NCBI RefSeq assembly: GCF_003711515.1
Contig: NW_021167089.1
Location: 7,296 to 71,295, forward strand
DNA from: Sodiomyces alkalinus F11
Lineage: Eukaryota; Ascomycota; Sordariomycetes; Glomerellales; Plectosphaerellaceae
DNA length: 64,000 nucleotides
Direction: 5' to 3'
Notes under the pieces: generated by a model
What the model was told of the DNA's origin: nothing
Database searches by the model: none
What the model saw: only the letters and a program-made list of their open reading frames with translations
Position numbers and translations under genes: made by a program
In this document: positions 10,371-47,072 of the stretch, piece by piece
Numbering within the stretch: the first letter of the stretch is position 1
How the letters are laid out: the number at the start of each line of letters is the position of its first letter

Positions 10371-10384
10371 TGCCTATTATGATA

Positions 10385-21659: not shown

Positions 21660-23926
21660 CTAGAGCCTTGCACGAGCCTGGCCCAACATATCCCAATCAC
21701 TCTCCGTGAAAGGGACGTACTCGGACGACCCAGCGGGGAGCCAGAAGAACAGATCTCGCTCCCCGCCTGGGACCTTCGTACCCCTGGCCCGAGGGTCAAC
21801 CCCTTCCTCCCTAAGGGGCACCTTACTATGCTTGTGATTATCGGTGCTCATGCCGCCGACGCCACCGTCCCGGACACGAAGGAAGACCGGCACGGCGTAG
21901 GGGGGCAGCTTGGACCTCAGCAAAGCCGCCAACCCTTCGGTCCCCTCGGTCCCCGCAGTCCCACCGTCCTGCCTCCAAACGAGAGCGACGCATCCAGCCC
22001 TGCCCTCGTGGCCTGGGATCTTCACCCCGTAAACGTTCGCCTCCGCGACGCGCGCATCGGAGCCCAGCACCTGCGCCACCTCCGTGGTGGACACGTTCTC
22101 CCCTTTCCAGCGGTACGTGTCGCCGAGCCGGTCCAAGAAATGCCAGTGTCCGTCGGCGTCGCGGCGGAGCGCGTCGCCCGTCCGGAAGTAGACGTCGCCC
22201 TTCTCGAACACGTCCCTGAGCAGCTTCTTCTGCGTCGCGTCCTCGGCTTGCCAGTACCCGGCCCAGGCCGAGGGGGACGGCAGCTTGACGAGGATCTCGC
22301 CCCCTTGGTCGTACGGCACGCGCTTCGCGAAGCCGGTCTTTGGTGACCGCCAGACGTCCCCCGTGTCTGGGTCGATGTGGACCGGCACGTACGTCTTGTG
22401 GAATTTTCGACGGAGGAGCCAGCCGTGGTGGCCTACGGCGCCGATGCCGAATCCGGGGCTCCGGTAATGCTTTACCAGCGTGAGGACGCCTTCGGTGCTG
22501 GCGTAGAATTCGCCAATGTCCGAGACGCCGAAGCGTTCCTGTCAATCATTAGCCCAGGGTAAGGTATAAGTTATTTCCCCCTTTTTTCCTTCTTTTCTTC
22601 GTTTCTTCTTTTCCCCTCCCTTACCTGGAATTTGGTCCACAACTCAGGACCGAGTCCGTTTCCCCAAATGAGCCGAATCTGGTGTTTACGGTCGTTTGGC
22701 GAAGGGGGGGCAGAGAGCAAATAGCGCACCAGCTCCCCGACTATTGTTTCTCAGTCCCCCTATCTATAGACTATAACAGTCACCCCGGTAGACCGGGAAG
22801 GGGAGAAACGCACCATAGACAAACACAGTTGACTTGCTTTGTATGCAATCATCCCAAAACCGCGACAGTGAGAATTTCGGAGCCACGGCAATGGAAATGC
22901 CACTCATTAAATCGTTCATCGCCGCGATCCCTCCGGTGCCGTGATACAGAGGGATGCAATAATAGGTCCGGTCACCATCTGGGCCTGGCCGCTGCCCAAA
23001 GGTTTTTGGGAGCAGGGACGCCGAGGGATAGTTGCGAGCCACAGTCAGAGGGAACGCCTTTGGCAGTCCGGTAGTTCCGCTGTCCACCGGTTAGAAAGAT
23101 TTAATTGTTCCGTTGTGAGGAAGTTGAGGAGGATGAGAAGTTGAGACCAGAGGAGGTCGCCTACCTAGTGTACATGAGAGCCAAAGGCAGCACCACGTCC
23201 CGTTCGAAGCAGTCCACCGGAGCCCTCTCGGGGACGTTCCCGGCAATGCCGGCCTTCAAAGAGCCCGAAAGCCTGATGGTCTCGACGCCGATCTCCCTTA
23301 GCTGTGCATCGGCGGCTTCCATGCGCGAGACGCAGTCTTGGGCGTCGTCGTACAAGAGGAACCACGTGCCCGCCAGACGGACACAGTGAACCAAAGCATC
23401 CGAGGCCAGGTTGTAGTTGACCAGGGCCGGGGCGGCGCCGATGGAGAGGAGGCCCATCCACACGAAGAGCAGCTCGGGCGAGTTGTACAGGTAGACGCCG
23501 ACATACTGAGAGGGCGAGACGCCTAGGGCCTGGAAGTAGCGGCCGTACTGGCACACGCGCTCGTAGGTCTGCGTCCAGGTGTACTGGGCCTGGCGAGACC
23601 ATATACAGGGCGCGTTTCCGAGGCGGCGGGCGGCGGCTTCGAAGAGGAAGAAGCCGGAAGCCTTTTTTTGTTCGACTGTGAGTATGTTAGAAGGGGGGGG
23701 GGGGAGGGAGAAGGGGGAAAAAAAGAAAAAAAAGGAAAAAGAAAAAGAAAACCCCCTTACCCGCCCTTGCAAAGTTACGCTCACCCTGCTTGGCTCGCGA
23801 TAGCTGGTCGAGATCTTTGGTGATGTGAAATTTGGCATCTAGATATGCCGACCCTGCGGCTATACCGACGAGGGCCATCAGCCCCTGAGGCATGCCTTGT
23901 AGAATTGTATCGAGTGGCAGCGACAT
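21660..23926 (-). CDS. cefD1: Acyl-CoA ligase, isopenicillinyl-CoA ligase candidate (CefD1-like)
   Basis: Five exons (23926-23785, 23675-23165, 23079-22814, 22740-22625, 22538-21660) encode about 637 aa of the FATP/very-long-chain acyl-CoA synthetase type. The N-terminus has a hydrophobic stretch (GLMALVGIAAGSAYL). The AMP/ATP-binding core [10 protein letters not shown] is at 216-225; GEFYASTEG, YFRTGD (to 467) and FLDRLGDTYRWKGENVS follow. The C-terminus ARL fits a peroxisomal PTS1. In A. chrysogenum, CefD1 activates isopenicillin N to its CoA ester so that CefD2 can epimerise it. The divergent pairing with a racemase gene, several introns and linkage to pcbC all match that system. Without context it would be called a fatty-acid CoA ligase. 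The A|GTAGGC to CAG|C junction rebuilds the SGTTG motif, supporting the splice model. Confidence 0.88.
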
Positions 23927-25129: not shown

Positions 25130-25285
25130 CCCCGCGCTCAATCAAAATAAGGAGTCACTCCGCAGTCCACCAGATTGGTCGTTTCAGTGTTCTTCTTTTC
25201 CGTACGGTGGTAGTCACGAAAATCGACTTCTCACGTCATCTTGGGACTTGGGTGGCGAGTTTTCATTTTCCTCTCATTTCCTCTC

Positions 25286-26641
25286 ATGACGCGGCCTCCT
25301 CCCTTGGCCGGCATACGTGTCGTGGAGCTCGCCGGCCTGGCGCCAGGTTCGTGTTCTCTGGCTCTCTCTCTCTCTCTCTGATTTTTGAGTATTGTTGGAT
25401 GTTGTTTAATTTTTCATTTTTTTATTTAAAAAAAGAGTGACAAAAGAGAAAAGAGAAAAGAGAAAAGAGAAACGGATCAAGTCTCAAGAAACAAGACACA
25501 AGACAAAAACGAAAATGTCTAACACCCTCGCATAGGCCCTTTCTGCGGTCTTGTCCTCGCCGATTACGGCGCATCCGTCCTCCGCATCGATGGGCCTCGC
25601 TCCCCGAAAGGCGACGTCTTAGCCAGACACAAGTCATCCCTATGTCTCGACTTGAAGCACCCTCCGTCCCGAGATGTCCTGCTCGAGCTGCTGGCCCGCG
25701 CCGACGTGCTCATCGACCCCTTTCGCCCCGGCGTCCTCGAAAGACTGGGCCTATCGCCCCACGAGGTCCTCCTCAAAAGGAACCCCCGACTCGTAGTGGC
25801 CCGCCTCACGGGGTTCCGCCGAGACGGCAAGTATCGCGACATGGCAGGCCACGACATCAACTACCTCGCCGTATCCGGCGTGCTCTCCATGCTGGGCCGC
25901 CCCGCCGACACCCCGCTCCCACCCGCCAACCTGCTGGGCGACTTCGCCGGCGGGGGCGCCATGTGCGTGCTGGGCATCCTCATGGCGCTGGTTGCGCGCC
26001 AGGCAGCAGCAGCGGGGGGCGCGGGCCAGGTGGTGGAGGCCAACATGGTGGATGGATCAGCTTACCTGGCGACGATGCCGCGGCTGGCGACGAAGACGGC
26101 CTTCTGGAACGCCGCGCGCGGGGAGAACGTTCTGGATGGAGGGTGTCCCTGGTACGACACGTACAGGACCAAGCAGTCGCAGTCCGTCGAGTCGGGCGTG
26201 GACGAATACGTCGCTGTCGGGGCGCTGGAGCCTCGTTTCTATGACGCGCTGTTGCGGGGGCTGGGTCTCGATCCGGCGACCTTGCCACCCAGGGAGGACA
26301 AGACGCAGTGGCCCGCGCTACGATCCGTGTTGCGGGCCAAGTTTGCGGAGAAGACGCGGAAGGAATGGGAGGGTGTGTTCGATGGCCTGGATGCATGCGT
26401 AACGCCGGTACTGGGCCAAGCTGAACTGGAGCGGGAGGGGTTCCTGCAGCGTCTCCCCGTTCACATGTCTCACACGCCCGGGAAGGCGATCCCACATGGC
26501 CAGGGCGATTGGACAGGAGGCACTCTGGCGCATGGCTTCGGAGGGGAGGAGGTGTTGTCTGAGTGGACCGGGTGGGCGGAGGGAGTCGACTACACCAAGA
26601 CGGCAAGTGGAATTGCCGTTCGGATGAGGGCTAAGCTGTAG
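25286..26641 (+). CDS. cefD2: Alpha-methylacyl-CoA racemase family, isopenicillinyl-CoA epimerase candidate (CefD2-like)
   Basis: Two exons (25286-25346, 25536-26641) encode about 388 aa of the CoA-transferase family III/racemase fold. The start [21 protein letters not shown] leads directly into the conserved [19 protein letters not shown]. Catalytic residues align with characterised racemases: His126 in [11 protein letters not shown], Asp156 in [10 protein letters not shown], and Glu252 in [12 protein letters not shown]. The C-terminus AKL is a canonical peroxisomal PTS1. In A. chrysogenum, CefD2 has one intron, about 380 residues and is divergent from cefD1; all three features are seen here. 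It would convert isopenicillinyl-CoA to penicillinyl-CoA. A housekeeping racemase for branched fatty acids is the alternative, but linkage to pcbC and pcbAB favours the epimerase role. Confidence 0.9.
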
Positions 26642-27090: not shown

Positions 27091-27296
27091 TGTCGAATAG
27101 ACCACAGTCTTTTCGGTTACGTAATGGGCCGGATTGCCAAGAGTATAATCCGGGTGGACGCTTACAGAATCTGCACTATATAAAATACGGTGGCAGCGTT
27201 TCCCTGATAGTCTAAGACAGTTAAAAATTATACATAATTACCTTAATTAATTTCGACTTATTTTTATTCATGATTTTAACTACGCTTTATCTGATA
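27091..27296 (+). repeat. 5' LTR
   Basis: This 206-bp repeat matches 32545-32749 apart from scattered C/T and G/A transitions and a 1-bp length difference. Its end has changed from the expected CA to TA, consistent with RIP. Confidence 0.92.
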
Positions 27297-30200
27297 ATTA
27301 AGAGTCTCACTTGCTAAGTGAAGATATACCCATTTTACCTACCCTTTACCACTACTACCGAATTAAGAAGCTATCTAGCTACGCCGATATAGCGTGTTAA
27401 TCTACAAATAACTATTAAGATATCGTATCTTAGCCCTATTACGTATAAAACCTATAAGGATTAGGAGCTCTAGCGACACCTGTACGAATCGGTTACCACC
27501 TATAATAACGTGTGGAGGTTTCTCCGCCCAGTCGATCCGACTTAGTTCCCTGAGGAGCCTATAATACCGGATTACGGTTCTTTCCTCTCTATAACACCTA
27601 AGCGTACGCCTATATAATATCTCGACCTTACGGACGTTAGCTAGAAAGCATACGACGTCGAAATCGCGCGCTGGAAGATCCTATAAACGCAATACGACAG
27701 CTACCTAAAGGGGATCAATGCTATACTAACCTAGCAGGTTAATACTATCGACTACAGCCGCAGATAACTACTACGAGGAGGCACACCTCGCGAGGTGTAT
27801 AAAGCCGTTAAACGCGATACGGATTAGTACCTGGCCACCCGCTAAACCGACACCCACGAAGAGTATATCGAGTATGCCTATTACCCTGCGAATAGCCTTA
27901 AGAAGCTCGGGGAGTGGTTAGATATATGGCAGCTACTACTATAAAGCTGTGAAGATACCGGTTCAAAGCCCGCCACGCATATATAGGTTATAGACTTCTT
28001 TAGAGGTATACGCCCCTATACCGGCCGCGATTAGACTAAGGCCGAGGGTCGCCTAGTAGATAACCAGGTAGTTATACCCGAAGACCTTTACACCCTTAGT
28101 CAGAAGTATATTAACACCAGACTTAAAGACTAAGGAAAACGCGGTAGCCACCGCGCTATAGTATTCCCTGCACTATATACCGGAAGCGAAGAGGGTGAAG
28201 ATACCTTAGAGGCCACGGCTAAGCCCCGTAAGAAGGGCGGCCGTGGGAAGAATAAAGCTAAGAATCCTATTACCGCGGTATCTATAGCCACACCTTTAGC
28301 TACTTTAGCTACTTTACCTACTTTAACTAACCGTTCCTCTTCTAAACGCCGCTAATCTGCTCTATAGAGAGGTTAGATCTACTGCGTATACGCTATACCT
28401 GGTCACGATATTAACGCCTGCTTCTATTTATTCCCGGATACGGTATATAACGATTAGATCCCCTTCGAGAGCACTAAAATAACCGTCTAAGGGATCCTTA
28501 AATACGACCCCTCGCTACGCGCGGAAGTAGAAGAACTGCGCGCCGTAAAGAAGGTGAAGAAGGATATAAGCCGGGATTCTGTATAGCTTAAAGAGGCGTG
28601 ACTTAATTATAGTAGCGTCCGCGGCGTCTCCCACGCCGCCACCTTTATAGCTAGCACTACTACTAGCTACCCTCTTCGAACCTCTGCTATCCTCGATTCC
28701 GGTACTACTATTTATATTTTGAACGATTTTTCCCGTTTTTTAGATTGTATACCCGTAACGCCGGGAGACTACGTAGTTATAGGCAGTTTATCCCTGCCTA
28801 TTAAAGGTTATAGTAACGTGACCGTGAGATTAAACAGACTAATAGGAGGCCTTAATTTTAGGCTATTAAACGTCGCCTACTACGAGGATTTTACCTATAA
28901 TTTAATCTCTAACTAACGCCTATATCTTCGAGGATACTAGTAGGATTAGAAGCTACTAAATAACTGTATTCGGCGTTCCGATAAATCTATACTATACTAG
29001 CTAAGTCACCGCTTCGATTAAACCGTTATTAAATATATGCCCTCTGACTAATCTACGGCTGCTTTTCTAGGCTCTTCTTCTTCTTCTTCTGCCACCCGAA
29101 AAGGCGTCTATAAATCGACGATATAGTATCTAAGAACTACGGAGGGTATCTTATAGTATCTATACCTAGGGCACGCAGGCCCTAAACCACTTAGGCACCT
29201 AAAAGAGCAGACGTAGGAGGTTAAAATCAAAGGACTAATAACTATCGACTATAAGGCCTACGAGCTTATAAAGATAAAACGGCACGTTAGTAGGCGCCCT
29301 CGCACTACACCTACCTACGCAGGGGAGCGATAGGCGATTAATTTTACGGATTTTGAACGAACGTCCGACGGGGACTTAAGGTTTATGTTTTTCACCGACC
29401 GTTATAGTGGTTTTACGGCCACCTACGTTATAAAAAGCAAGCTGGTAGTGGATATCCTTATAATAATTAAGGAATTCCTCGCCTGGGTAGACCGTTAATT
29501 AGGCTATAAGGTGCGCGTTTGCGAATCTGATAACGAACTAACTTAATCCCACGATATCACCTAATTCCTGCGTGACGAGGGCATCCTTTTAGAGGTATCT
29601 GCTACCGACACTCAAGTATAGAACGGGGGTGCCGAACGCGCTGCTGCCGTGGTTATTTCAAAGGGTTATACGATAAATATCCACGTAAAACTATCGCCGT
29701 TTATATAGCCTAAGGCTATTCCCACGGCAGTATACGTCTATAACCGGACGCCATGAAGGCAGTAAAAGGATTGGAAAACGCCCTACGAGGCCCTCTTTGA
29801 AAGGAAGCCGATTTTATTACACCTTCGAGCTTACGGCTATAAGGCGTACGCGATAATAAAGGACGCCCAGAAGGCTACTAATAAGCTATTAAATCGTATT
29901 GCTCCTCACGCCTATATCGGCTACCTCGTCGGCTACGATTCTACTAATATTTTCCGTATCTGGGTGCCTGGCCTACGCCGCTATAACCGCGTTATTCGAA
30001 CGCGCGATATGGATTTTAACGAACGCGCCTTCTTCAACGGCGATATCGCCACCTTTAAGGACAACCTCCGTTAATCAATGAGGAGTAATTAGAAGACCTG
30101 ATTAGTTAGATCGAGCAGGAGAGGGCTAGAGATTCACGGCCGTTTACGGACGTATAAGCTAAGGACCCCCCCCTTTATATAACTGCTTATTTTAAATTAT

Positions 30201-32544
30201 TAGATCCGGGGATAAACGCCCCCGGATCCCCTTCCTCGACGGCTTTACCGTTAAGGTTATAGTCCGTAATACCCGGCCGTAAGGGGGTAGAGGAGGCTAT
30301 TTTAAGTTAATCAGGACAAGATTTAGGTTATAAATAGTGTGATTTAGCCGGTATAGCGCCTGATTACCGTCTATATCCGTCCGATCTATTACTTCCTACT
30401 CTACTAGTAACCCCGCCGTCGATTATAGCGCTAATAGCAACTGTTATATTAGGAAACCGTGATACCCCTGCGGCCGCAGGGTTCTAGGATAACGGAACAC
30501 GGTGCTACGATACCCTTATAGCTACGGCTACAGGGCTCCTATTAAATAAAGGAGCGTAACTAATTCGGTAAGGAGATAGCTGGAAAAGAGACTATTAGGT
30601 TATAGTATTTAACGCTGGCCGTTACGCACCTAATATATATATATTAAATAGGACTCCGCTAACTAAATTACGGTTAAAAAGGTCCACGCCTATAGCATTA
30701 TAACGACGCTTAATAACACCCCGCGAATCCACGGCCCCGGCGGCAGCTATTAGAAGCACGTCCCGGGAGGCTATCTCGGGAAATATGACCCCGGCGGTTA
30801 CTTCGGCGGGTACTCCGGCGGTTATCCCGGCTACCGCAGAGATCCACCGTAAAGACCTCCCTCCTCCTCCGAAGAACCCTCGCGATATACCCTCGCACCC
30901 TTACGGCCACCTATTCCGACAGGTATAAGAAGACTACCTGCGGAGCCACGAAGAGATAGGGTTATAGATACGGGTGCCGGCATCCGTAGCAGATAGATAT
31001 CAGGTTCTTAATTCGATATGGGTAATAATATATAAGTTCGATAAATATAGATTTCTATATAAATGTAAGGTAAGGCTTATAGTGCGAGGAGATTAGCAGT
31101 ATTAATCCTCGCTTAAGGAGACGTACGCAGTAACACAGCTATCGCCGCCCGATTTAACCTTACGCTATTATAATTTAACGTTATAAACGCGTTTATATAC
31201 GCGCCCCTCCCCCACGATATCTTTATATACCCGCCGCCAGGCTTTCCAGCCCTTAGGAGTCGTTTACACCTGAAAAAGGCGTTATATAGACTTAAGAAGT
31301 CTCCACTACTTTAGTAAAAGCACTTTTCGGCTATCCTTTTAACGGACGGCTTCTAGATAGTGCCGTAAGAACCGTGTTATTTTCTACGCCGCGGTTTAAT
31401 CCTATTCTTCTATGTTAACGATATCGTTATTACTTATAAGGAATAATATAAGACGTAGATAGAGCAGGCCATTAATAACCTGCAACGCCACTATAACCTA
31501 TAAAGTAGCGATCCTCTATAGTAGTTTCTTAGTATTAAGGTTATTCGCGACCGCGTCGCCCGTAAAATCTGGTTATCATAACACGACTACGTTACTAAGT
31601 TAGAACGCCTATTAAAGCCGAATAGCAAACATAGCAGTAACTATCGCCTAACGTACGTAATTCAGGTTATAGAGCTACTACCCTATTCAGGGACCTCGAC
31701 TAACGTTAAAAGCTATTAACGGAAGATAGGATCTATACTATACGCAGTAGTGATATCACGGCCTAATATCGCGTTTATAGTATCTAGGCTATACCGGTTC
31801 AACGTCAATCCAGGGCCTATTCACCACGAGGCCGCCGATTATCTAATCCTCTATCTGATTAATAGCCAATCGTTTACGTTAGAACTAGGGGGTGGCGATA
31901 CTATTAAAATCTACACTAACGCCTCCTTGACCGATAATACCCTCGATCGAAAGAGCAGTTAAGCCTATATAATACGCTTATTTAGCAGTATAATAGCATG
32001 GCGCGCTAATAAGCAGGATACGGTTATAACGTCTATAACGGAAGCAGAGCTATTAGCGTTAGTATAAGATGTAAAAGAGGGTATCTTCATATAACGCCTA
32101 TTACTTAGTATAGGAGTGGAATTTAACGATCCGGAATTAAGGATCTTATACGACAATAACCAAATAATTCGATTAGTCAATTATGAGATCAGCACGTTAA
32201 TAACGCGCCTCCGCCACGTCGATATCCACGGCCACTAGTTACGTTAAGCAAAGGAATAAGGGTAAATACTCGTAACGTACGTTACGAGCGCGGAAATAAT
32301 GGCAGACGGATTAACGAAGGCGTTATACGGCGAGAAATTTAAGATATTCAGGTCCTAGGTGGGCGTGATAGATATACGGGAACGGTTATCGCAGAAACAG
32401 CTAGAGGAAGTCCGGATAGAATATTTGAAGGACCTAGAGGATGAATTTAAGGGCGGCTATAGCGAACAGATTATATAGCTAGATTGTCTGCCGATTACGA
32501 ATAGCTTTAATCGCCTAACTAACGTTTAGGGCGATTAGGGGGTG
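27297..32544 (+). pseudogene. Decayed Copia gag-pol
   Basis: No long open frame remains; the longest fragments are about 60-70 codons (for example 28719-28916, following the protease motif, and 31750-31962, spanning the reverse transcriptase/RNase H region). In-frame TAG and TAA stand where Copia proteins usually carry Gln or Trp, as C-to-T change on either strand would produce. The reverse transcriptase active site, normally Tyr-Val-Asp-Asp, reads Tyr-Val-Asn-Asp near 31415, so the first catalytic Asp of the pair is lost. The element cannot encode active proteins. Confidence 0.88.
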
Positions 32545-32749
32545 TGTCGAATAGACCACAGTCTTTTCGGTTATATAATAGGCCGGATTACCAAGAGTAT
32601 AATCCGGGTAGACGCTTGCAGAATCTGCACTATATAAAATACGGTGGCAGCGTTTCCCTGACGGTCTGAGACAGTCAAAAATTATACATAATTGCCTCAA
32701 TTAATTTCGACCTATTTTTGTGACGATTTTGACTACGCTTTATCTGACA
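32545..32749 (+). repeat. 3' LTR
   Basis: This 205-bp repeat begins TGTCGAATAG and ends TGACA, directly followed by the right CACGT duplication. A purine-rich stretch immediately before it (GGGCGATTAGGGGG) is the likely plus-strand primer site. Confidence 0.92.
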
Positions 32750-32835
32750 CACGTCGGCATACGAATCTTCACCCCTAGTCGTCGATCTGTGGAGCTCAAG
32801 ATATGCCGGCGTCCCACTTACAGTGTAACCTTACA

Positions 32836-33843
32836 CTACGTCTGTCCATTCTTCTTGATCAGACCCGCCAAGCCACCTTGCAGATAGTCGCCATATGAAA
32901 CGCTCTCTCTCGCTTCCTCCTCCTTCTTACCGCCTTCTTCGCCGGCGGGGTTCCAGGGGTGGACGGTATCCTCCCAGCCGAGATTGACGAAAAAGGGCAA
33001 CGATTGGCGCTCGGCATTGACCCATTTGACGCGGTGGATGGGCGCCGGGTAGTAGTCGTTGGTGATGTGGGCCATGTAGCTCCCGCAGTTGACCAGGAAG
33101 CCCGAGTCGTCGGCCTCGATGTCGAGCCACCCCTGCGGCGTCTTGACCTGCAGGTTCTGCACGTCGGACTGGTACAGCACCGTGATGAGCGAGACGTCCT
33201 CGTGCCACTCGAAGCTGAGCTTGGTGCCGTCGTCGGCCGTCTTGATGGCCGGCGCGGGGTAGTCCTCCAGGTACGGGTAGCGGATCAGCACGACCGAGGA
33301 GAGCGTGGTGTCCCGGCGGAAGTGGCGCGTGAACAGGTCCTCCTGCTGGCCCAGCGCGAGGGCGTACCCGCGCAGCAGGGCCTCCGAGACGCCGAAGACG
33401 TCCCAGTAGTACTTCTCGGCGAAGGCGCGGAACCCGGGGTGCTTCTCCTCGTCGGGCCACACGTTGACCTCGTGCATGGGCGTCGGGTGGGCGATGCGGG
33501 GGTGGTCCGGGGTGAACGAGGGGTTGAGGTAGCAGAAGGACTCGACCGCCTTCTTGCCCGGAATGGGCAGGTAGTAGCCGGAGCGGATTTGCGACTGGTG
33601 CTCCTTGTTGTAGGCGCGGATGGCCAGTTCCCATTTTTCGTCGTCGGTGATGGTTCGGTGGAACTTGGCCGTCTCATGGGAGAGCCGTGGGAGGTCGACG
33701 CCGTGGTGGACGGCGTAGAAGAAACCCGTGTCCCGCGAGGCGGCGTCGATGGCCTTTGCCACGCGGAGCTTTGCCTCCTTGTCGTCTCCGAAGAGGGGAG
33801 AGACGTCGATGCGGGGGACGTTGGCGACAGGAACAGAACCCAT
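32836..33843 (-). CDS. pcbC: Isopenicillin N synthase
   Basis: IPNS is a non-haem iron oxidase that closes the linear tripeptide ACV to isopenicillin N using O2. The intron-free frame gives 335 aa from the ATG at 33843; an in-frame upstream ATG at 33939 adds a hydrophobic leader unlike known IPNS proteins, so I prefer the shorter form. Iron ligands His214 and Asp216 ([10 protein letters not shown]) and His270 (PIHRVKWV) fall at exactly the classical positions. Substrate-binding residues Arg87, Tyr189, Arg279 and Ser281 (the RQS motif) and the C-terminal NGQT with the mobile Gln are also present. The absence of introns agrees with the proposed bacterial origin of this gene. It diverges from pcbAB. 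The C-terminus is not peroxisomal, consistent with a cytosolic step. Confidence 0.97.
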
Positions 33844-35177
33844 GGTGTCTGTGTGAGTGGTGTAGAGAAAGGGGAGGCGCGATGTAAGAGCAGTGAGCAC
33901 AGGTAATAGCACAGGTATGAGGGATGAGCTGGAGTGCAATGTGAGTAGGGGGGTGCTCGTGTAAGTAAGAGGCAGAGAAAGGGCTGGTGACTAGGCGAGA
34001 CGGGTGACTCGTGAGACTCTTGTGGTTGAAAAAAAAGGGGGTAGCACTAGAACCCGTCGATCAACGTTGTGCATTAAATAAATACACGAATCTGTAGATA
34101 TATGACCGGATCAGAATTCTTTGCCCCTCCATTCCATCCCTCTTGATGTGAGGGTATTTCCCTTTTGGTGCGGCCTGCGGCTGGGTGGCAATGCGAACTA
34201 CATGTGCCTACACTATGTGTACTGAAAGTGCATGTGCTCTGCTCTTAGCAAATCATGGCCCATGATCCCGGCTGCAGATCGACGTCTTGGGAACCGATAT
34301 AGGGGCCCATGTTCTAGGAAGGTAGTCGAGAACTACCCCCGCCAAGAGGATGCTAAGATGCACTGCAGCACTTCTATCCAGAGCCGCTTGACACGGTTTA
34401 CTGCTTCCTCCACATGCCGTCTTGCGGCTAGTTTGGTTTCTTGAAGCATCAAATCTAACATACGACGTACATGGGCCCTGTGAGATCAAGCTGCATACCG
34501 AGCGGCCCAGGCATGGGTCGATGGGCCATGCCGCCGTTGATCCGTGGACCCAGCGATACGCTGATGTTCAGAGACTTTCCGAGAACGGCTCGCAACGTGC
34601 ATATCCCTTCTCCGGCTTATCCCACAAGAGTTTGGTACCAAATAACAACACGGCGGTGAGACCACATGGTGCAGCAAAGACGTGGATTCCCGTCCAGGTG
34701 CCTCCGGATCATCGTATCTCGAGCCTTGCGGCTTGCCACAGCCCATGGCCCACGGCCCAGGGCCCGACTCGCTGCAGATATGAAAGACATAGCGGGGTAT
34801 GGGCCATATGCTCCAACGTGGGCCATTTCGCCTCTTTGCCTACTCCATGTAGTAACGTGCGATCTTCTATGGTGAAGCCGGACCCTTACCGGCAGGGGTG
34901 AAGGATCCAGCGTAGTCGATGCATGTGGGTTCTGCAGCCTTTGGGACTTGCAGATATTTTCTCCCTTCTCTTTTTGCGTTCCTAGAAATATAAGACGTGT
35001 GAAGAAAGGACTTTGTCGATAAAGGAAAGCCCTCGTTGACATTATTGTTCCATTCGCCTTGGAGAGATACGTTTGCTCACTGCTCACTTGCATCCATCCG
35101 ATTCCTTCCCTGCGGGTCGTTCCCCTGAGCCCCTGAGCCCCTCACCCCCTTTCCCCCTTTTCCCCCCTTCGAACAAC
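33844..35177. promoter_or_regulatory. Bidirectional pcbC-pcbAB promoter
   Basis: This 1.33 kb region lies between the two start codons, the layout known from Acremonium, Penicillium and Aspergillus. A TATA-like ATTAAATAAAT (about 34072-34082) lies some 230 bp upstream of pcbC, and AAATATAAGA (about 34986-34995) some 180 bp upstream of pcbAB. A PacC-type GCCAAG is at 34341-34346, and CreA-like GCGGGG is at about 34792. I found no exact CCAAT. A pyrimidine-rich leader (35102-35170) precedes the pcbAB start. Functional use of these sites is inferred. Confidence 0.75.
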
Positions 35178-38100
35178 ATGGAGCATTCCGGGACAAACGG
35201 AACAAACGGAACAAACGGCGTTGCAATCAACGGGTAAGTCGAATAAGGGTTGATTTATTGTCCATCTCCCCGAAAAAAAAAAGTTGAGAATACAGAGAGA
35301 GACGTCGTTGGGACAAGCAACTGATATAACCAAACCCCTGTCCACACGATTAGGAATCACAGCCCACCCACCAAACATGACGCCTTACAAACCCCCAAAG
35401 GCGTCATTCACGTCAAAGCTGCCAGAAATGAAGGGCCCCAACCGCCGGTCCCGAACTGCTGGATCAGTTCCGCTGCGCTGGAACGGTGGAAACAAACGGC
35501 CCGGGCTTTCCCCGAGCGCTGCGACCTCAGCGGCCTGAGTCTGCAACCGGTGCAATACCAACTGGCATCGACCGGAGTGTCGGTGAACCGGACCAGCAGC
35601 ACCGACTCCGGCCAAGCTCCGTCTCCCACTCCTCCCACCCTCGCCCTCACCCTCGCCCAGCGCTCTACCGTCGTGTCGGGCGACCTTATCCCTCAACTGA
35701 AACATGTCTGCTCGCAGAGACGACTGGATGCCAAGTCCCTGGTGCTCTTTGCCGTGCACCAAATGCTCAAGGGCCACGGAAACGGCTCTCATACCGTTAT
35801 CGCATCGTTCGTCTCGCGGACATCCCAACGGCCCGATTCTGGTTCATCAACGGCCGCCGCGTCGCTGGTTGTCCCCTCTGTCGTGGATCACGGGGATCGA
35901 CCGAACCAGACGGTCGATTCTGCCTTGTCCCAAATCGGCCTGGGCACGGGGTCGGTTGACTGGGACGAGGAGCCCCTGATTCCCGTGGCGACAGACGACC
36001 TCGTCAAGTCCGAACTTGTCGATCTCATGGTGGTTTTTGACGACAACGAACACGAAGACAACTTGAGCGACACACCGCTACCAGGAGGAGAATTCATGTT
36101 TCCTCTCATCCTCCGTATAACTTTCGGGGAGACGCAATGGAAATTCTCTCTGCAATACCGCCGCAGTCTCTTCGACGGACCCGTCATCGACAGCTTCCTG
36201 GGCTCGCTGCACACCCTCCTGGCAGCCTCCCTGCGGCCCTCTCTCCCGCTGGCGGACATCGAACTCCTCCCGGCCGAACAAGTCGCCCAGCTAAACGAGT
36301 GGAACAACACGGACGGCGACTACCCGGCAGACAAGAGACTGCACCACCTGTTCGAAGACGTGGCGTCACGTCGCGGGGACAAGGTGGCCGTCCTTTGCGG
36401 CGCCAAACGCATCACCTACAGCACGCTGAATGCGCGGGCCAACCGCTTGGCGCGCCATCTCTCCGACATCATGGGCATCCAGCCCGAGCAGCTCGTCGGC
36501 CTGTTCCTCGACAAGAGCGACAAGCTGGTCGCCACCATCCTGGGCGTTTGGAAGTCGGGCGCCGCCTACGTGCCCATCGACCCGGCCTATCCGGATGACC
36601 GCGTGCGGTTCGTGCTGGAGGACACGCAGGTCCGCGTCGTCCTGGCGAGCGAGAGACACGTCCATCGGCTGAGGGACCAGATCGCCGCGGCGGGGCGAGA
36701 TCTCCTCCGTGTCATTGCCATTGAGCCTCTCCTGGAGTCTCTCGAGTTGCAGAGACTGCAGCAGCAGCAACAACAAGACGGCGACGCCTCTTCGGAAAAC
36801 CTGACCCATCTGCCCCTCCACAGCAAACAGCTCGCCTACGTCACGTACACCTCCGGCACGACGGGATACCCCAAGGGCATCCGCAAGGAACACACGAGCG
36901 TGGTCAACAGCATCACCGATCTCTCGTCCCGGTACGGCGTGGCCGGTCAGGAGGACGAAGTGGTGATGCTCTTCTCGGCCTACGTGTTCGAGCCGTTCGT
37001 CCGTCAGATGCTGATGGCCCTGACGACGGGGAACCGGCTCGCCATCATCGGCGACGACGAAAAGTTCGACCCGGACGTCCTGCTCCCCTTCATCCAGAAG
37101 CACAAGGTCAGCTACATCAACGGGACGGCGTCGGTGCTGCAGGAGTACGATTTCACCGCGTGCCCTTCGCTCAAGCGCATCATCTTGGTCGGGGAGAACC
37201 TGACCGAGGCGCGCTACGAGGCTCTCCGGCGACGGTTCCAGGCCCGGATATTCAACGAGTACGGCTTCACCGAGTCGGCCTTCGTCACGGCCCTCAACAT
37301 CTTCGAGCCGACGTCGGAGCGGAAAGACACGAGCCTGGGCCGCCCCGTGCGGAACGTCAAGTGCTACGTGTTGGACGCGAACCTCAAGAGGGTGCCCATA
37401 GGCGTCACGGGCGAACTGCACATCGGCGGCCTGGGCATTTCGAAAGGCTACCTGAACCGGGAGAAGCTCACGCGGGAGAAGTTCATCCCCAACCCGTTCC
37501 GGACCGAGAGGGAGCGCCGGCTGGGCATCAACGGGTTGATGTACAAGACGGGCGACCTGGCGCGCTGGCTGCCCAACGGAGAGGTCGAGTACCTGGGCCG
37601 GGCGGACTTCCAGATCAAGCTGCGCGGTATCCGCATCGAGCCGGGAGAGATCGAGTCGACGTTGGCCATGTACCCCGGCGGACCTGTCCGGACGAGCATC
37701 GTCGTGTCGAAGAAGCTGATCGGCAAGGAGGGCCGGGAGACGACCCAGGACCATCTCGTGGGGTACTACGTGTGCGACGAGCGGGCCTTGGACGAGGACG
37801 AGCTGCTGATGTTCCTCGAGACCAAGCTGCCTCGGTATATGATCCCCACAAGGCTGGTCCAGCTCGGCCAGATTCCCGTCACCACCAATGGCAAGGCTGA
37901 CCTCCGTGCCCTTCCCGCTGTCGAGGTGGCCCCGTGTCCATCCCGGTCGTCTGACGGGGTTGATGTGAACACGGAGGGGCCGAGGACGACGAAGACCGAG
38001 ATGGAAAGTCGGCTGGCCGGTATCTGGGGAGACGTGTTGTTGATTGCGTCGGGGGGGGTTGGGCCCGAGTCCAACTTCTTCCGCCTCGGAGGGCATAGTA

Positions 38101-41100
38101 TCGCCTGTATCCAGCTCATTGCTCGGGTGAGGCGGCAGTTGGGTCGGACGATCACTCTGGAAGAGGTCTTCCGGGCGAAGACTCTGCAAGAGATGGCCGA
38201 ACTCTTGGAGGGCAAGCCGAGCGCCAACGGTGTAGGCGTTGTGACGAATGGCACTGGCCACGCCAACGGCATCACCAACGGTGTGAATGGTCACGATCAC
38301 GGCCACGGCCAAGGCCACGGCCACGGCCACAGCGTCAACTACCTTGCCAACAGCCTGCAACAAGGCTTCGTATACCACTCACTCAAGACCGAGCGGTCCG
38401 ACGACGCCTACATCATGCAGTCCCTCCTTCATTACCAAGTGGCCTTGGACGAGAGGCGTTACCAAAGTGCCTGGGAGAGGGTGCAGCGGCAACATCCCGC
38501 CTTGCGACTGCGATTCGCATGGGAAGCCGAGGTGATGCAAGTCGTCAACCCAGAACCCATGGCCACCTGGCGAGTGATCGACTGGACAGACGTCTCAGAC
38601 CAAGGGGAACGACAAAGGCTGCTGGAAAAGATGCAAATCGACGACCGTTCCCGTGCCTATCGTCTCGACGAGGGCTCCCTGGTCCAACTCTACTTCTTCC
38701 TCTTGCCGGAGCAGCAATCCCTATGTCTGTTCAGCTGCCACCATGCCATCCTCGACGGATGGAGTCTGCCGTTGCTCTTCGAGTATGTCCACCAGGCCTA
38801 CCTGGACCTGACAGACGGGACTGCCGGGACTGCCGAGACCCAACTTGAAGAACCGGCCCAAGAGGACGCGACCTACCTCCTCAGTCAGCAGTATCTCCAG
38901 GATCACAGAGACGACCACCTGGACTTTTGGGCGGAGCAAATCGACAAGATCGAGGAGCGCTGCGACATGAACGCCCTCCTGAACGAAGCCAGCCGCTACA
39001 AAGTGCCCCTGTCCAACTACGACCAGATCAAGGAACAAAAGCAACAGACCGTCGACCTCCCCTGGGGCAACAAGTCCATGAGCCTCGCGGCAAAACAAGA
39101 GCTCGACAGCCGGGGCATCACCCTCCATTCCGTCCTGCAGCTGGTCTGGCATCTCGTGCTCCATTCGTACGGCGGCGGCACGCATACCATCACCGGCACC
39201 ACCATATCCGGCCGCCACCTCCCCGTCGACGGCATCGAGCACGCCGTCGGCCTGTTCATCAACACGCTGCCCCTGATCTTCGACCACGTCCTGAGCCGCG
39301 ACATGACCGCCCTGGAGGCCATCACCCACGTGCAGAGCCAAGTCAACGCCATGAATTCCAGGGGCAACGTCGAGCTGGGGCGTCTGCAGCAAAACGACTT
39401 GAAGCACGGCCTCTTCGACTCGCTGTTCGTCTTGGAGAACTACCCGAACCTCGACACCACGAGACGAGAGCTACACCGGAAGACGTTGAAGTACACGGTC
39501 CAAGGCGGCACCGAGAAGCTCAGCTACCCCCTGGCTGTCATTGCGCAGGAAGAACATGAAGACTCGGACGGCAACGGCGGCGGCTGCTCGTTTACCCTCT
39601 GCTACGCCAGCGAGCTGTTCGCCGACGAGTCCATCGAGGTGTTGCTGCACACGGTCCGCGACACCTTCCGCACCGTCACGGAAAACCTCCATGCGCCGAT
39701 CCGCGGCATCGAGTTCCTCTCCTCGAACCAGATCGCCCTCCTCGACAGGTGGAATGCCACCGACGCCGAGTACCCCAACGCCACGCTGCACGCCATCTTC
39801 GAGTCCGAGGCGCTCCAGAAACCGAAAAAGACCGCCGTGGTGTACGAGGACGTCCGGTTGACCTACGAGGAGCTCAACAGCCGCGCCAATGCCCTGGCGT
39901 ACCATCTCCTCCGAGAGGCCCCTTCGCTGCGACCCAACAAGCTCGTGGCCCTGGTCATGGAGAAGAGCGAGCACATGATCACGAGCATCCTCGCCGTGTG
40001 GAAGACGGGGGCCGCCTACGTGCCCATCGACCCGGGCTATCCCGACCAACGAATCCAGTACCTCATCGACGACACGGCGTCCCTGGCCGTCATCGCCGAC
40101 GTTCCTCACCTGGACCGCCTCCGTGCCATCACCAAGGGCCGGCTACCCCTGATCCCGTCCGACCTGGCCCCGCGCCTACCGCCGAGCGCCGTGCATCCCG
40201 TCTCCGCCTCAAGCTGTACCCCGGCGGACCTAGCCTACATCATGTACACGTCCGGCACGACGGGTCTCCCCAAGGGCGTCATGGTCGAGCACCACGGCGT
40301 CGTCAACCTCTGCGCCTCGCTGGGTCGCATCTTCGGGCTGCGAGACACCGACGACGAGGTGATCCTCTCCTTCTCCAACTACGTCTTCGACCACTTCGTC
40401 GAGCAGATGACCGACGCCCTGCTGAACGGCCAGACCCTCGTGGTCCTCAACGACGAGATGCGCGGCGACAAGGAGAGGCTCTACCGCTACATGGAGGCCA
40501 ACCGCGTCACCTACCTCTCGGGCACGCCGTCCGTCATCTCCATGTACGAGTTTGACCGCTTCCACGCCCACCTCCGCCGCATCGACTGTGTCGGCGAGGC
40601 TTTCAGCGAGCCCGTCTTCGACAAGATCCGCGAGTCCTTCCCGGGCCTCGTCATCAACGGGTACGGGCCCACGGAGGTGTCCATCACCACCCACAAACGC
40701 CTCTACCCCTTCCCGGAGCGGAGGACCGACAAGAGCATCGGGAAGCAGGTGCACAACAGCAAGAGCTACGTCTTGAACGGTGATCGGAAGCGCGTGCCTA
40801 TCGGGGCCGTCGGGGAGCTGTATCTCGGCGGCGACGGCGTGGCGCGCGGGTACCATAACCGCCCGGACCTGGCGTCGGAGCGCTTCCCGCCGAATCCGTT
40901 CCAGACGGAGCAGGAGAGGCGAGAAGGTCGGAACTGTCGTCTCTACAAGACGGGCGACTTGGTGCGGTGGATCCGGACCCCCGAGGGCGAGGGCGAGGTG
41001 GAATATCTCGGCCGCAACGACTTCCAGGTCAAGATCCGCGGGCAGAGGATCGAGCTCGGGGAGATCGAGGCCGTCTTGTCGTCGTACCCGGAGATCCAGC

Positions 41101-44100
41101 AGTCGGTCGTCGTCGCCAAAGACCGCGAGAGCGATGGACAGAAGTACCTCGTCGGGTATTTCGTCTCGGACTCGGCCGTCCCCCTCTCGGCCCAGGTGAT
41201 TCGGCGCTTCATGCACACGAGGTTGCCGGAGTACATGGTCCCCGCGCGGCTGGTGCCCATCGACAAGATCCCCGTCACGGTCAGTGGGAAGCTGAACGCC
41301 AAGGCATTACCGGACCCCGGGGAGCTGGTAGAAGAGGAGAAGGTGGCGCCCCGGACCGAGGCGGAACGGACCCTCGCCGAGATTTGGTCCGAGTTGCTCG
41401 GGATCCCCTTGGCGGGCATTGGCATCTATAACAGCTTCTTCAGTCTCGGCGGCGACAGTCTCAAGAGCACCAAGCTTTCGTTCGCCGCCACCAAGGCCTT
41501 CGGGGTGTCCGTCAGTGTCAGTGACCTGTTCAGCCACCCTACCGTCGAGGCCCTGGCGCATCTGATCACTAGGGGCCGGGGCAAGGGCCAGGGCAAGGGC
41601 AAGGGCGAGGACAAGTCGGCAGACGTCGGGAGGGTGAGACCGGGAGGTGTCCGGAAGGACGACACGGTCGAGGACATCCCCGTGTCGCCAGCCCAGGAGA
41701 GACTGATATTCATCCACGAGTTTGACCAGAGCCAGAACGACCACGCCTATAACATCTCCCTCCAGCTCACGCTTCGCCAAGATGTCTCTCTCGAGGCGCT
41801 CGAAAAGGCGTTCTGGGATGTCGTCTCCAGACACGAGGCTCTGCGGACGTTGATCGTCAGGCCAACGCACAGCCAGAGACACTGCCAGAGAATCCTCGAG
41901 GCCGATGCGGCGCAAAGGCTCTTCCACGTCGAGGTCCTGCCCCTGGATTCTGAGAGCCAGATGCACGCCAAGATGGTGGAGAGCGCGGAACATGCCTTTG
42001 CCCTTGATGCCGAACTGCCCATCCATGTGCGCCTCTACGAGACGCAGACACAGACCCAGACCCAGACCCAGACCCAGACACAATCCCGCTCGTACGCCAG
42101 CATCGTCTTCCATCACCTCGCATTCGACGCCTGGTCGTGGGACATCTTCGAGAGAGACCTGGCCGAGTTATACTCCGTGCACGCCGGCCACAAGACGGCC
42201 GCCAGTCTCCCGCCCCTCCGCGTCCAGTACAAGGAGTACGCCCTGGAACATCGCAAGACCCTACGGGACGACCAGGGCCGTCGCCACCTCGCCGACTACT
42301 GGCTCCGCAAGCTCAGCGATCTAGAGCCTTCGTACCTCGTCACCGACCGGCCGCGGCCCAGCCAGTTCGACTACGCCGGCCACGACCTCGACGTGTGCAT
42401 CGGCGAAGAAGTGACCGACAAGCTGAGGAACCTGGCCAAGCGCCAAGGGACGAGCCTCTACACCGTGGTCATCGCCGCCTACTTCCTGCTCCTCAACGTC
42501 TACACGAACCAGCGGGATGTGACCGTCGGCATCCCCGTCGCCCATCGTACCCATGCCGAGTTCGAGTCGGTTGTCGGCTTCTTCGTCAACTTGCTCCCCC
42601 TGCGGGTGAATCTCGCCGACACGAACGTCCACGGGCTCGTCCAGGCCGTGCACAAGGAGTTCTTGGATGCCCAGGCCCACAAAGACCTGCCTTTCCAGGA
42701 CATCACCAAGCTGTTGCACGTGCAGCATGATCCGAGCCGCCACCCCCTGGTGCAGATCGTGTTCAACTGGGAGACGACGCAGGCGGTCGTTGCGGACGAG
42801 AATGACAAGGCGGACGGCAAGCCGCTTCTCCAGGAATATAGCCCCCCGTCTGGTTCTAATCCCCTGCCGTCCGTGGCCAAGTTTGACCTGAACGCCACCG
42901 TCCGGGAGAGCACGTCGTCGCTGAAAATCAACTTCAACTATGCCACCAGCCTCTTCGACGCCGAGACCATTCAGGGGTTCCTGGACACTTTCCACCACCT
43001 CCTCCGACGACTGGCGAATAGCACCCCTGAGATGGCCCTCTCGGAGCTTCAGCTCGCTGCATCTGTTCCCAATGGTGTCGCTGTAACGTCGTCCACCAAC
43101 GGCGAGGCCGCCGCCACCCCGACACAGACTCTCGGCGACATGTTCGAAGCCCAAGCCGCCGCCACACCAGACCGTGTCGCCCTTGCAGACGGCTCTACCA
43201 GGCTGTCCTACCTCGAGACCAACGCCCGAGCAAACCGGCTGGCCGGCTGGATGTCCTCTCATCTCGGCATGGGCCCAAGCGATCGCGTTGCCCTGCTTCT
43301 CGACAAGAGCATCGACATGGTCGTGGCCATCCTGGCCGTCTGGAAGATCGGCGCCGCCTACGTCCCCATGGACCCGGACTACCCGCGGCAGAGAATCGAG
43401 TACATCTTGAAGGATGCCGGCGCCCGGCTGCTGATCACCGCGAGCAAACATGTCCCCGGGCCGGAAACCACCGGCGGCGGCGTGTGTACCCTGGCCCTTG
43501 ACGACCCCGAGACCCCCGCGGCCCTCCAGCAGCACGAGACGTGGAGTCCAAACGCCGTCGTCGTCCCCCAGCGGAGCCTCTCCGACTTGGCCTACATCAT
43601 CTACACATCCGGGACCACCGGCAAGCCAAAGGGCGTTCTGGTAGCGCAGAGAAGCGTAGCCCGGTTCCGCAACGCCGTGGTCAGCCGGTACTTCGGCCAG
43701 ACGAACGGCTCGCACGCGGTGCTCTTCCTCTCCAACTACGTCTTCGACTTCTCCATCGAGCAGCTCGCCCTCGGCATCCTCAGCGGCAACAAGCTCGTCA
43801 TCCCGCCCGAGGAGGGCCTGACGCACGAGGCCTTCTACCACCTCGCCGACGCGGAACAGCTGACCTACCTCAGCGGGACGCCGTCCGTGGTGCAGCAGAT
43901 CCAGCTGTCCCGGCTGCCGCACCTGCGCATGGCCACCGTCGCGGGCGAGGAGCTCCACGCGAGCCAGTTCAAGGCCATGCGCGCGCAGTTTGGCGGCCCC
44001 ATCAACAACGCCTACGGCGTCACCGAGACCACCGTGTACAACATCGTCACCACCATGGCGGGAGAGGCGCCTTTCACCAAGGCGCTGCAGGACGAGCTTC

Positions 44101-47072
44101 CCGGCACGCATGCCTACGTCCTGAATGACCGACTCGAGCCCGTGCCCCGGAATGCGGTGGGCGAGCTGTACCTCGGCGGTGCATGTCTCGCCCGGGGCTA
44201 CCTGAACAAGGAAGACCTCACGAGAGAACGATTCATCCCGAACCCCTTCATCGTTTCGAGCCGGGACGGGAGGGGGGAGAAGGAGGAGCACCTGCATGAT
44301 GTGCTTTACAAGACCGGCGACATGGTGCGCTTCCGCGGGTCCCGGCATCTCGAGTTCCTGGGACGACGAGATCAGCAGGTCAAGTTGCGCGGCTTCCGCA
44401 TCGAGCTCTCCGAGGTGCGGGACGCCATTCTGGCCATCCCGGGTATCAAGGAAGCCGCCGTGGTGCCCCGTTACGAGCGCGACGACCCGGCTTCCCGCGC
44501 CATCAGCGCCCTGTCCTGCTATTACACCCTCCAAGACGGAGCGTCGCACTCGCATTATACGCCGTCGGACGTTCGGGACCGTCTGCGCGACAGCGTCCCC
44601 CCTTACATGATCCCGAGCCAGATTCATCGTCTGGAAGGGTCCCTCCCCGTGACGGTCAACGGGAAACTCGACATGAAGCAGCTGAGCATGACCGAGGGCG
44701 CCAAGCCCGAGTGTTACGTCGCGCCGCGGGACGAGCTGGAGGTGAAGCTGTGCCAGCTCTGGGCGTCGATCCTGGGCATAGACGGCAACTGCGGAATCGA
44801 CGATGATCTTTTCGCCAGGGGCGGCGACAGCATCTCGTCGTTGCGGTTGGTGGGCGATATCTACCGTGTCCTGGAGCGCAAGGTCACGGTGAAGGATATC
44901 TACCTCCATCGGACCGTCCGGAGCCTGTGCGAGAACGTCCTGCGAGACGGGGAGGAAAAGCAAAGAAGACGGAAGGAGCTGACGAACGGAACGGAGCCGG
45001 CTGCTGCTGCTGGTTGGCAAGCCGAGCAGGGCGCTGTCGAGGGTGATGCGCCGCTGCTTCCCATCCAGCGCTGGTTCCTGGCCAAGCCGCTGCAGCGTCC
45101 CGGATACTGGAACCACTGCTTCACCGTTCGCACGCCAGAATTGTCGGTCGAAAGGCTCCGCAGAGCTCTGCACCTGTTGCAGGAGCGGCATGATGTGCTG
45201 CGACTGAGGCTCAGACGCGGCGATGACGGAGACTTTGTGCAGACGTTCCCCCTGAACTGCGCCCCGCCCCATCCGGAGGAGGTCGACGTCGCAGACTTCG
45301 GGGATCCTCAAAACGACACGGTCCGGGTCCTGTCGGAGCTTCAATCCAAGTTTGATATCGAGCAAGGCCCGTTGTATGCAGTCGCTTACCTCCACAACTA
45401 CGCAGACGGTTCGGCCCGCGTCTGGTTCGCGCTGCATCACCTCCTCGTCGACACGGTCAGCTGGAACATCATCCTCTCGGACCTGCAGACGCTGTATCAC
45501 GGCAACAACCCCGGCCCCAAGACGGCCAGCGTCAAGCAGTGGGCGCTGGCGGCGAAGGACTACTTCATGTCGCTCTCCGAGAAGGCGTACTGGAACTCGG
45601 CCCGCGCCAAGGCTGCTGCCCAAGGCCCCGGTCTGGGCATGCCAAATCCGACGACCGTCGGGGGCGCTACATGTACCAAGCACGGAAGCAAGCTTTCCGA
45701 GAAGGACACGACGTTCCTCCTCACCAAGAGCTGCGCGGCCCTGAACGCCGGCATGCACGACATCCTCCTGACGGCCGTGGGCGGCGCGATGCAGAAGGTC
45801 CTCGGGGACAAAGCGCCAACGGTCGTCACCATCGAAGGTCACGGGCGTGAGGGGGACGCCATGGTCGGCGGGTCCTCATCCTCGGCCTCCTCGCTCGACG
45901 TGAGCCGCACCGTCGGCTGGTTCACGAGCATGTACCCCTTCGAGATCCCCAAGGTAGCAAATGATCCGGCCCAGGGCGTCGTCGACGTCAAGGAAAGGTT
46001 GGGAAAGGTGCCGAACAACGGCTTCGGCTACGGTCTCGCGTACGGATACCTCGAGCAGGCCCTTCCGGCCGTGAGCGTCAACTACCTCGGCCGTCTGGAT
46101 CAAGGAGGAAGCCGGCCGAGGCCGGGAGAGTGGGTCCTCGCCCTCGGGGACGGGGAGTTCCCGCACGGCCTGTGCACGGCTGCCGAGGACGCGGGACGCA
46201 GCTCGTCCTCTCTGGTGGATTTCACATTCGCCGTTGCCAGGGGGCAGTTGACCGTCGAGATGAGCTGCGCACGGGAATTCGGCGCATCCGAGGCGCTCAT
46301 CCGCGGCGTAGAAGAGACGCTGGGCGCTCTGATCGAAGCCACCGCGCAACCCGACTTCCACCCTCCGGCGGCATCGGACCCGGACCTCGACTTCACGCCC
46401 TACTTCGTCTTCGAGGGTCCGGCGTCCCGCCAAGGCGCTCCGCTCTTCATGCTGCCCCCGGGCGAGGGAGGCGCGGAGAGCTACTTCCACAACCTGGTGC
46501 AGGGTCTCCCGCACCGCAACCTCGTCGTGTTCAACAACCACTACCGCGAGAAGAAGACGCTGCGCACCATCGAGGACCTGGCCGCCTACTACCTGGCGCA
46601 CATGCGTTCCATCCAGCCGGAAGGGCCGTACCACATCCTCGGCTGGAGTTTCGGCGGCATCCTGGGCCTCGAGGCGGCGAAGCGGCTGACGTGCGACGGC
46701 GAGCGGGTTGCGACGTTGGCCTTGATCGATCCCTATTTCGACATCCCGTCGGCCGCCAAGGCCGTTGGCCATGTGGAGGGGTCGATCCTGGATCCCATCT
46801 ATGATGTGTACCGGCCCGACCCGGAGAGTTTCAAGGCGGTGCAAGATGGTACGGATCGGGTGATCCTTTTCAAGGCCACCGAGACCAACGACCAGGACGG
46901 AACACCGACCAGGATGAAGCTGTTCCGCTGGTACGCGGCGTCGCCGATGAACAACCTGGACATGTTTATCGACCGGGATGCCATTCAGGTGGTTCCGTTG
47001 AAGGGGACCCATTTCACCTGGGTTCATGTGTCGGAGCAAGTGGCTGCCATGTGTGCCCGGTTAGAGGAGTGA
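35178..47072 (+). CDS. pcbAB: ACV synthetase (three-module nonribosomal peptide synthetase)
   Basis: The enzyme joins L-alpha-aminoadipate, L-cysteine and D-valine into ACV, the first step of beta-lactam synthesis. I predict exon 1 at 35178-35233 ([18 protein letters not shown]) and exon 2 at 35354-47072, about 3924 aa. Domain order with approximate residues of key motifs: A1 ([11 protein letters not shown], 514), T1 (LGGHS, 925), C1 (HHAILDGWS, 1146), A2 ([11 protein letters not shown], 1647), T2 (LGGDS, 2045), C2 (HHLAFDAWS, 2271), A3 ([11 protein letters not shown], 2766), T3 (RGGDS, 3171), epimerase ([10 protein letters not shown], 3380; EGHGRE) and thioesterase (GWSFGG, 3782). This is the diagnostic ACVS layout; the epimerase produces D-valine and the thioesterase releases the tripeptide. 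It is longer than the usual 3700-3800 aa because of low-complexity linkers: a Gly/His run after T1, a Gly/Lys run after T2 and a Thr-Gln run within C2. Confidence 0.98.
42044..42084 (+). repeat. CAGACC/CAGACA microsatellite inside pcbAB
   Basis: A hexanucleotide run encodes repeated Thr-Gln pairs ending about 10 residues before the C2 catalytic HHxxxD motif. It keeps the frame. Confidence 0.85.

Follow-up and report, generated by a model that had tools for sequence, protein, structure and literature searches.

A probable early cephalosporin-type beta-lactam gene cluster, most likely ending at penicillin N, in the alkaliphilic fungus Sodiomyces alkalinus F11

Background

In Acremonium (Hapsidospora) chrysogenum, the early genes of the cephalosporin pathway lie in the order MFS-cefD1-cefD2-pcbC-pcbAB (MFS, major facilitator superfamily) according to passages of PMC8780691, and both CefD1 and CefD2 carry type 1 peroxisomal targeting signals (pts1) and are placed in the peroxisome, as told in part of PMC7183595. 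Here we describe a window of 64,000 nucleotides from Sodiomyces alkalinus F11 (assembly GCF_003711515.1, contig NW_021167089.1, positions 7,296 to 71,295), in which an original prediction had placed, at positions 32836-47072, a divergent pair of genes for isopenicillin N synthase (IPNS; pcbC) and for the synthetase of aminoadipyl-cysteinyl-valine (ACV; pcbAB). This pair is present, and the order of the genes found around it is MFS-cefD1-cefD2-pcbC-pcbAB. Judging from gene content, we consider it likely that the locus represents, intact, the early section of a cephalosporin-type beta-lactam cluster, the end product of which would most likely be penicillin N.

The host, a member of the Plectosphaerellaceae (Glomerellales), lives in saline alkaline lakes as an obligate alkaliphile, according to passages of PMC13207871. 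The S. alkalinus hydrophobin given in passages of PMC9322931 was recovered at 98% identity over residues 1-87 of its 99. The words cephalosporin, lactam, isopenicillin and penicillin are all absent from the main text of that article, excerpts of PMC10609068 mention Sodiomyces and cephalosporin without linking them, and we found no open-access literature that treats Sodiomyces together with isopenicillin. The kind of gene is well known; the host is the new part.

Results

Both genes of the divergent core, pcbC on the minus and pcbAB on the plus strand, are intact. In a search of the sequences of the Protein Data Bank (PDB), the pcbC product aligned end to end with the Aspergillus nidulans IPNS 1bk0 (E 2.4e-173), and the best 15 of 54 matching sequences, which score 568-579 bits, were all IPNS, with the following entry at 111 bits. 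Ten of the 11 positions that we take to form the IPNS active site carry the expected residue at its classical number (Arg87, Ser183, Tyr189, Phe211, His214, Asp216, His270, Arg279, Ser281 and Phe285); these include the iron ligands His214, Asp216 and His270 and the substrate motif Arg279/Ser281, all of which the original prediction had read correctly. By plain numbering, position 330 is Lys and not Gln; the C-terminus is still NGQT, and Gln330 is displaced because the protein is 4 amino acids longer. Among the best 120 of 386 database relatives of IPNS, the closest came from Sodiomyces alcalophilus (87%) and Hapsidospora (84%), and at least 13 named fungal genera were represented, so that the earlier statement that true pairs are known from few fungal genera was too narrow. 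Two side observations concern the same 120 relatives. No protein identical to pcbC was among them, yet the public set holds a named S. alkalinus F11 cefD2 product; pcbC may be unannotated or differently modelled there. In addition, proteins assigned to animals, namely the fungus gnat Bradysia odoriphaga and the nematode Plectus sambesii (P0057, P0050), show 59-61% identity and pair together in the 41-row tree described below.

For pcbAB, the sequence model takes the start codon from a predicted 56-bp first exon followed by a GTAAGT...TAG intron. A frameshift in the long second exon was looked for and none was found, no internal stop occurring across its 11,719 bp. Pfam, run on seven pieces of the synthetase, gave in order A-T, C, A-T, C, A-T, a C-type domain and TE (A, adenylation; T, thiolation carrier; C, condensation; E, epimerisation; TE, thioesterase). 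With the last C-type domain read as E, which its position and its HHLLVD motif suggest, this bears out the A-T-C-A-T-C-A-T-E-TE order predicted for a single protein; a C-like remnant, below threshold, lies ahead of the first A domain. The synthetase shows the three GGxS motifs of its carrier domains, three HHxxxD motifs and, for the thioesterase, GWSFG. The only models to pass among its best 25 of 106 NCBIfam matches were general ones of the adenylation type. Aligned to a typed GrsA sequence, the three adenylation codes read EPRNIVEFVK, DHESDVGITK and DFESTAAVYK; in a looser alignment the third reads DFESTAAIVK, differing in its last letters.

These codes were compared with bacterial ones. Seventy-two bacterial loci were fetched with the IPNS alignment, and 12 of them (L015-L026) count as IPNS (at least 55% identity to the first row of the query). 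A synthetase related to pcbAB flanks IPNS in 11 of the 12 and is 40-44% identical over the main stretch, the remaining locus (L025) being a short contig without a synthetase. All 11 bacterial synthetases show DHESDIGITK and DFES(L/V)AAVYK, and in L024, the only one of them in which three A domains are complete, the first code is EPRNLVEFVK. The pcbAB and bacterial codes thus differ by one or two letters in each case, code 1 being comparable in L024 only. Four of the IPNS loci come from Lysobacteraceae (L023), Pseudoalteromonas (L024), an uncultured proteobacterium (L025) and Luteimonas (L026), and the ACV synthetase gene adjoins IPNS in three of these four.

The interval of the original prediction holds the core pair and stops too early, as cefD2, a cefD1 candidate and an MFS gene lie to its left, at 19097-26641 (Table 1). 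Over its 388 amino acids, the cefD2 model, once spliced, matches a public protein named "isopenicillin n-CoA epimerase [Sodiomyces alkalinus F11]" at 100%, and it is 75-77% identical to Hapsidospora CefD2. The splice sites of these three genes were chosen manually; for the MFS gene there were 15 stop-free models, of which the first was preferred, and PF07690 was found on two of its pieces, once above the cut-off and once slightly below. In NCBIfam, pcbC matched no family, and the cefD1 and cefD2 pieces passed no cut-off (best 25 of 60 matches; 6 of 6). The cefD2 and cefD1 products end in AKL and ARL, tripeptides that we take to be of the pts1 kind. A C-terminus of the form [SAC][KRH][LM] occurs in 91 of the best 120 CefD2 relatives, and the pts1-type end of CefD2 is therefore a trait of the family.

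Table 1. Features of the beta-lactam locus of S. alkalinus F11 (positions within the 64,000-nucleotide window)
Feature	Position	Strand	Description
MFS transporter in cefM position	19097..20957	minus	four exons, ~483 aa; PF07690
cefD1, isopenicillin N-CoA ligase candidate	21660..23926	minus	637 aa; acyl-CoA synthetase domain, five exons, YTSGTTG motif, ends ARL
cefD1 exons (hand-chosen)	23785-23926, 23165-23675, 22814-23079, 22625-22740, 21660-22538	minus	
cefD2, isopenicillin N-CoA epimerase	25286..26641	plus	388 aa; exons 25286-25346 + 25536-26641; CoA-transferase family III, ends AKL
Long terminal repeat (LTR) retrotransposon copy	27091..32749		base bias of the repeat-induced point mutation (RIP) type; inserted between cefD2 and pcbC
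pcbC, isopenicillin N synthase	32836..33843	minus	uninterrupted 335-aa frame, no intron
pcbC-pcbAB interval	33844..35177		1,334 bp; presumed two-way promoter
pcbAB exon 1, proposed	35178..35233	plus	56 bp; frame and GT...AG intron 35234-35353
pcbAB exon 2	35354..47072	plus	11,719 bp; open frame; with exon 1, 3,924 aa, A-T-C-A-T-C-A-T-E-TE

The original prediction had named isopenicillin N as the product. As a true pcbAB/pcbC pair, the core should indeed make it, but the pathway probably does not end with this compound, because the cefD1-cefD2 pair and the MFS gene adjoin the core. From the genes we infer a route, including enzyme activities, transport, expression and an end at penicillin N, that would run as follows: (i) the ACV synthetase would join L-aminoadipate, L-cysteine and valine and turn the valine to the D form, (ii) IPNS would close two rings to give isopenicillin N, (iii) isopenicillin N would enter the peroxisomes and CefD1 would form its CoA thioester, (iv) CefD2 would invert the aminoadipyl side chain, and (v) penicillin N would be released and exported.

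Among the late cephalosporin genes, the search was aimed at cefEF. With the A. chrysogenum and Pochonia queries, no cefEF was found in the genome: the matches were oxygenases of 27-31% identity with E values of 1.7e-5 or worse, one of them being pcbC itself, and a further match of 39% over 55 residues (E 0.57). The A. chrysogenum query detected genes of 50-56% identity in all three bacterial beta-lactam control genomes (the top match in each having E 3.1e-105 or better), and within the Sodiomyces genome a Hapsidospora CefD2 query recovered the spliced cefD2 (E 1.7e-180). No row named Sodiomyces appeared in the best 120 of 205 CefEF relatives, many of which bear no species name, though S. alcalophilus proteins are present in the database searched. 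The distance of the genome matches beside the positive controls, and the lack of Sodiomyces among those relatives, speak against the view that unlinked or unrecognised enzymes turn the product into a cephalosporin or some new derivative. That view can draw on the five matches to the 2-oxoglutarate (2OG) oxygenase family in the genome, pcbC included, and on the separate locus of cefEF and cefG in A. chrysogenum (passages of PMC11719821 and PMC7183595), and a cefEF may be hidden in an assembly gap; we consider it very improbable.

The pathway might also end at isopenicillin N itself, with cefD1 and cefD2 serving fatty-acid oxidation or some other pathway. Fungi widely carry CefD2-like proteins (7570 of 7996 scored candidates pass E 1e-3), many of the best 120 CefD2 relatives belong to Penicillium, Aspergillus or Talaromyces (61-66%), and excerpts of PMC8810379 report cefD1 and cefD2 in P. 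chrysogenum as well. The cluster cefD2 is, however, the best match of the genome to Hapsidospora CefD2 (77%), cefD1 and cefD2 are linked to the core in the published A. chrysogenum order, and a separate CefD2-like copy elsewhere, 61% identical to Hapsidospora CefD2, can fill a general role, which makes an end at isopenicillin N improbable in our view. This second, unlinked gene lies at G000:C1:7137960-7139087 and perhaps encodes a general racemase.

The retrotransposon between cefD2 and pcbC has two LTRs of ~204 nt that are 91% alike and is flanked by a 5-bp repeat, CACGT, at 27086-27090 and 32750-32754. At least 33 other matches to it were found in the genome, a lower bound since scoring covered 26 of 499 first-look candidates, and 17 of these matches, 87-91% identical, span 4.6 kb or more of the query. 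The RIP composite is 0.48 to 1.66 in the six 1-kb blocks of 27001-33000 and at most 0.09 in the other 36 of 42 blocks; the block with most of pcbC, at 0.01, shows no bias. The end of the element and the stop codon of pcbC are 86 bp apart. Such a RIP-biased repeat might bring repressive chromatin or spoil the 3' end of pcbC, so that an intact cluster would be silent or barely expressed and yield little or no beta-lactam. In keeping with this, the passages of PMC9322931 on eight S. alkalinus strains, assayed against 10 bacterial strains and against fungi, stress antifungal activity and make no mention of a beta-lactam. We nevertheless regard a silent cluster as unlikely: all five genes have open models, the active-site residues of IPNS are kept, and relatives of IPNS and CefD2 occur in S. 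alcalophilus too, both on one 9,102,672-base contig. That these relatives are kept in S. alcalophilus points to continued selection.

Several points weigh against an early cluster that makes penicillin N. The second C domain of pcbAB has HHLAFDA instead of HHxxxDG, a form that is presumably usual for ACV synthetases. The candidate cefD1 was assigned by its domain, position and C-terminus, the cefEF controls are bacterial, intron-free genes, and the retrotransposon could disturb the 3' end of pcbC. Neither PF03417, which was detected in 5 of 14 named control genomes, nor a typed isopenicillin N acyltransferase (IAT) sequence gave an acyltransferase match in the genome, in a search without a fungal positive control. 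Finally, P. chrysogenum has cefD1 and cefD2 yet makes no cephalosporins, as told in part of PMC8810379, and such genes are therefore no proof of epimerisation. With neither a cefEF nor an acyltransferase found in these searches, penicillin N is the most likely end of the pathway.

PacC was considered as connecting growth in alkali to the cluster and was rejected as evidence, as the pcbC-pcbAB interval holds a single GCCARG where simulated sequence has 2.0. CreA, GATA and CCAAT motifs showed no enrichment over simulated sequence in this interval, and between cefD1 and cefD2 none of the PacC, CreA, GATA and CCAAT motifs was clearly enriched (CCAAT 5 against 2.5, a count reached in 13% of simulations). 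Of 30 coding-like segments in the window, 20 were scanned with Pfam, among them 6 of the 8 to the right of pcbAB, as was the synthetase, and no further beta-lactam gene was found in these. The sequence of the same contig left of the window is almost wholly N. To the left of the cefM-like gene lies a second MFS gene region (16299-18151, plus strand; PF07690 on 17204-18028), and the Pfam neighbours at 2820-13699 and 59546-60052 are ordinary ones: VPS35, an M28 peptidase with a TFR dimer domain, a copper amine oxidase and an SHR3 chaperone.

The phylogeny proposed along with the original prediction was run for IPNS. In the 41-row tree, Sodiomyces groups with Emericellopsis and two further rows (97/87), and then with Hapsidospora (95/84). 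Holding the Hypocreales together without Sodiomyces was not clearly rejected (p 0.053); the same test for the Bionectriaceae, a group named after the tree was seen, gave p 0.040. A 16-row tree left the order open and did not reject one Hypocreales clade (p 0.213). IPNS alone was thus set aside as proof of a transfer between orders. The CefD2 tree supports a group of Sodiomyces, Madurella mycetomatis and Hapsidospora (97/91) and rejects one Hypocreales clade (p 0.002, with rows of unknown origin forced outside it); M. mycetomatis we take to belong to the Sordariales. Among the best 120 CefD2 relatives, M. mycetomatis (P0245) is the nearest outside Sodiomyces, at 81-83.6% and above Hapsidospora, and no row named Madurella occurs among the best 120 of 386 IPNS relatives. 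A joint alignment of IPNS and CefD2 for nine taxa places Sodiomyces with Hapsidospora (98/94) and rejects one Hypocreales clade (p 0.010; 0.0088 with one further row added to the clade).

As the CefD2 and joint trees put Sodiomyces inside the Hypocreales, transfer between orders becomes a reasonable hypothesis. Against it, Hapsidospora IPNS is nearly as close to that of Malbranchea (83.7%), presumably outside the Sordariomycetes, as to that of Sodiomyces (84.5%), and hidden duplicates and losses may explain the trees instead. Emericellopsis alkalina, a species of the Hypocreales, occurs in the same kind of lakes, as stated in passages of PMC13207871. Tentatively, as something possible rather than probable, we suggest that the whole penicillin N cluster moved into Sodiomyces from a Bionectriaceae-like donor of the Hypocreales (Hapsidospora/Emericellopsis) sharing soda-lake habitats, and has been retained in its new host, lacking its late genes, to serve an obligate alkaliphile as a beta-lactam weapon or signal.

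Discussion

With this locus, the fungi known to have beta-lactam genes gain a named, culturable host that lives in an extreme habitat, and the cluster seems to end naturally at penicillin N. Beta-lactams hydrolyse in alkali and are hence expected to be short-lived there. Three ideas become testable now: that an alkaliphile makes and protects an alkali-labile antibiotic, that the late genes of the cephalosporin pathway were added on, and that beta-lactam clusters pass between fungal orders.

Compared with the described systems, the locus shares the pcbAB-pcbC core with Penicillium chrysogenum and Trichophyton erinacei, which likewise have cefD1/cefD2 and themselves lack cefEF and cefG, and differs in penDE, which is present in those two species (excerpts of PMC8810379) and of which none was found in Sodiomyces, in a search without a fungal positive control. 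Conoideocrella and Pochonia (Clavicipitaceae) have IPNS of ~77% identity, and Conoideocrella also has pcbAB, pcbC, an epimerase gene and cefM; in contrast to Sodiomyces, both have a CefEF relative, which lies inside the cluster in Conoideocrella (passages of PMC12352038). Emericellopsis cladophorae (Bionectriaceae) has pcbAB, pcbC, cefD1 and cefM, with an IPNS of 81% identity, whereas cefD2, present in Sodiomyces, is reported missing there (part of PMC8780691). From A. chrysogenum, Sodiomyces differs in that no cefEF was found in its genome, that no match to the D-lactate dehydrogenase (ORF3) or to an MFS protein was seen in the scanned segments right of pcbAB, and that cefD2 and pcbC are split by the retrotransposon. 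The two fungi are alike in the early cluster, with pcbAB, pcbC, cefD2, cefD1 and the MFS gene in the same order as far as the published passages go, in IPNS, which is 84.5% identical, and in the peroxisome-type C-termini.

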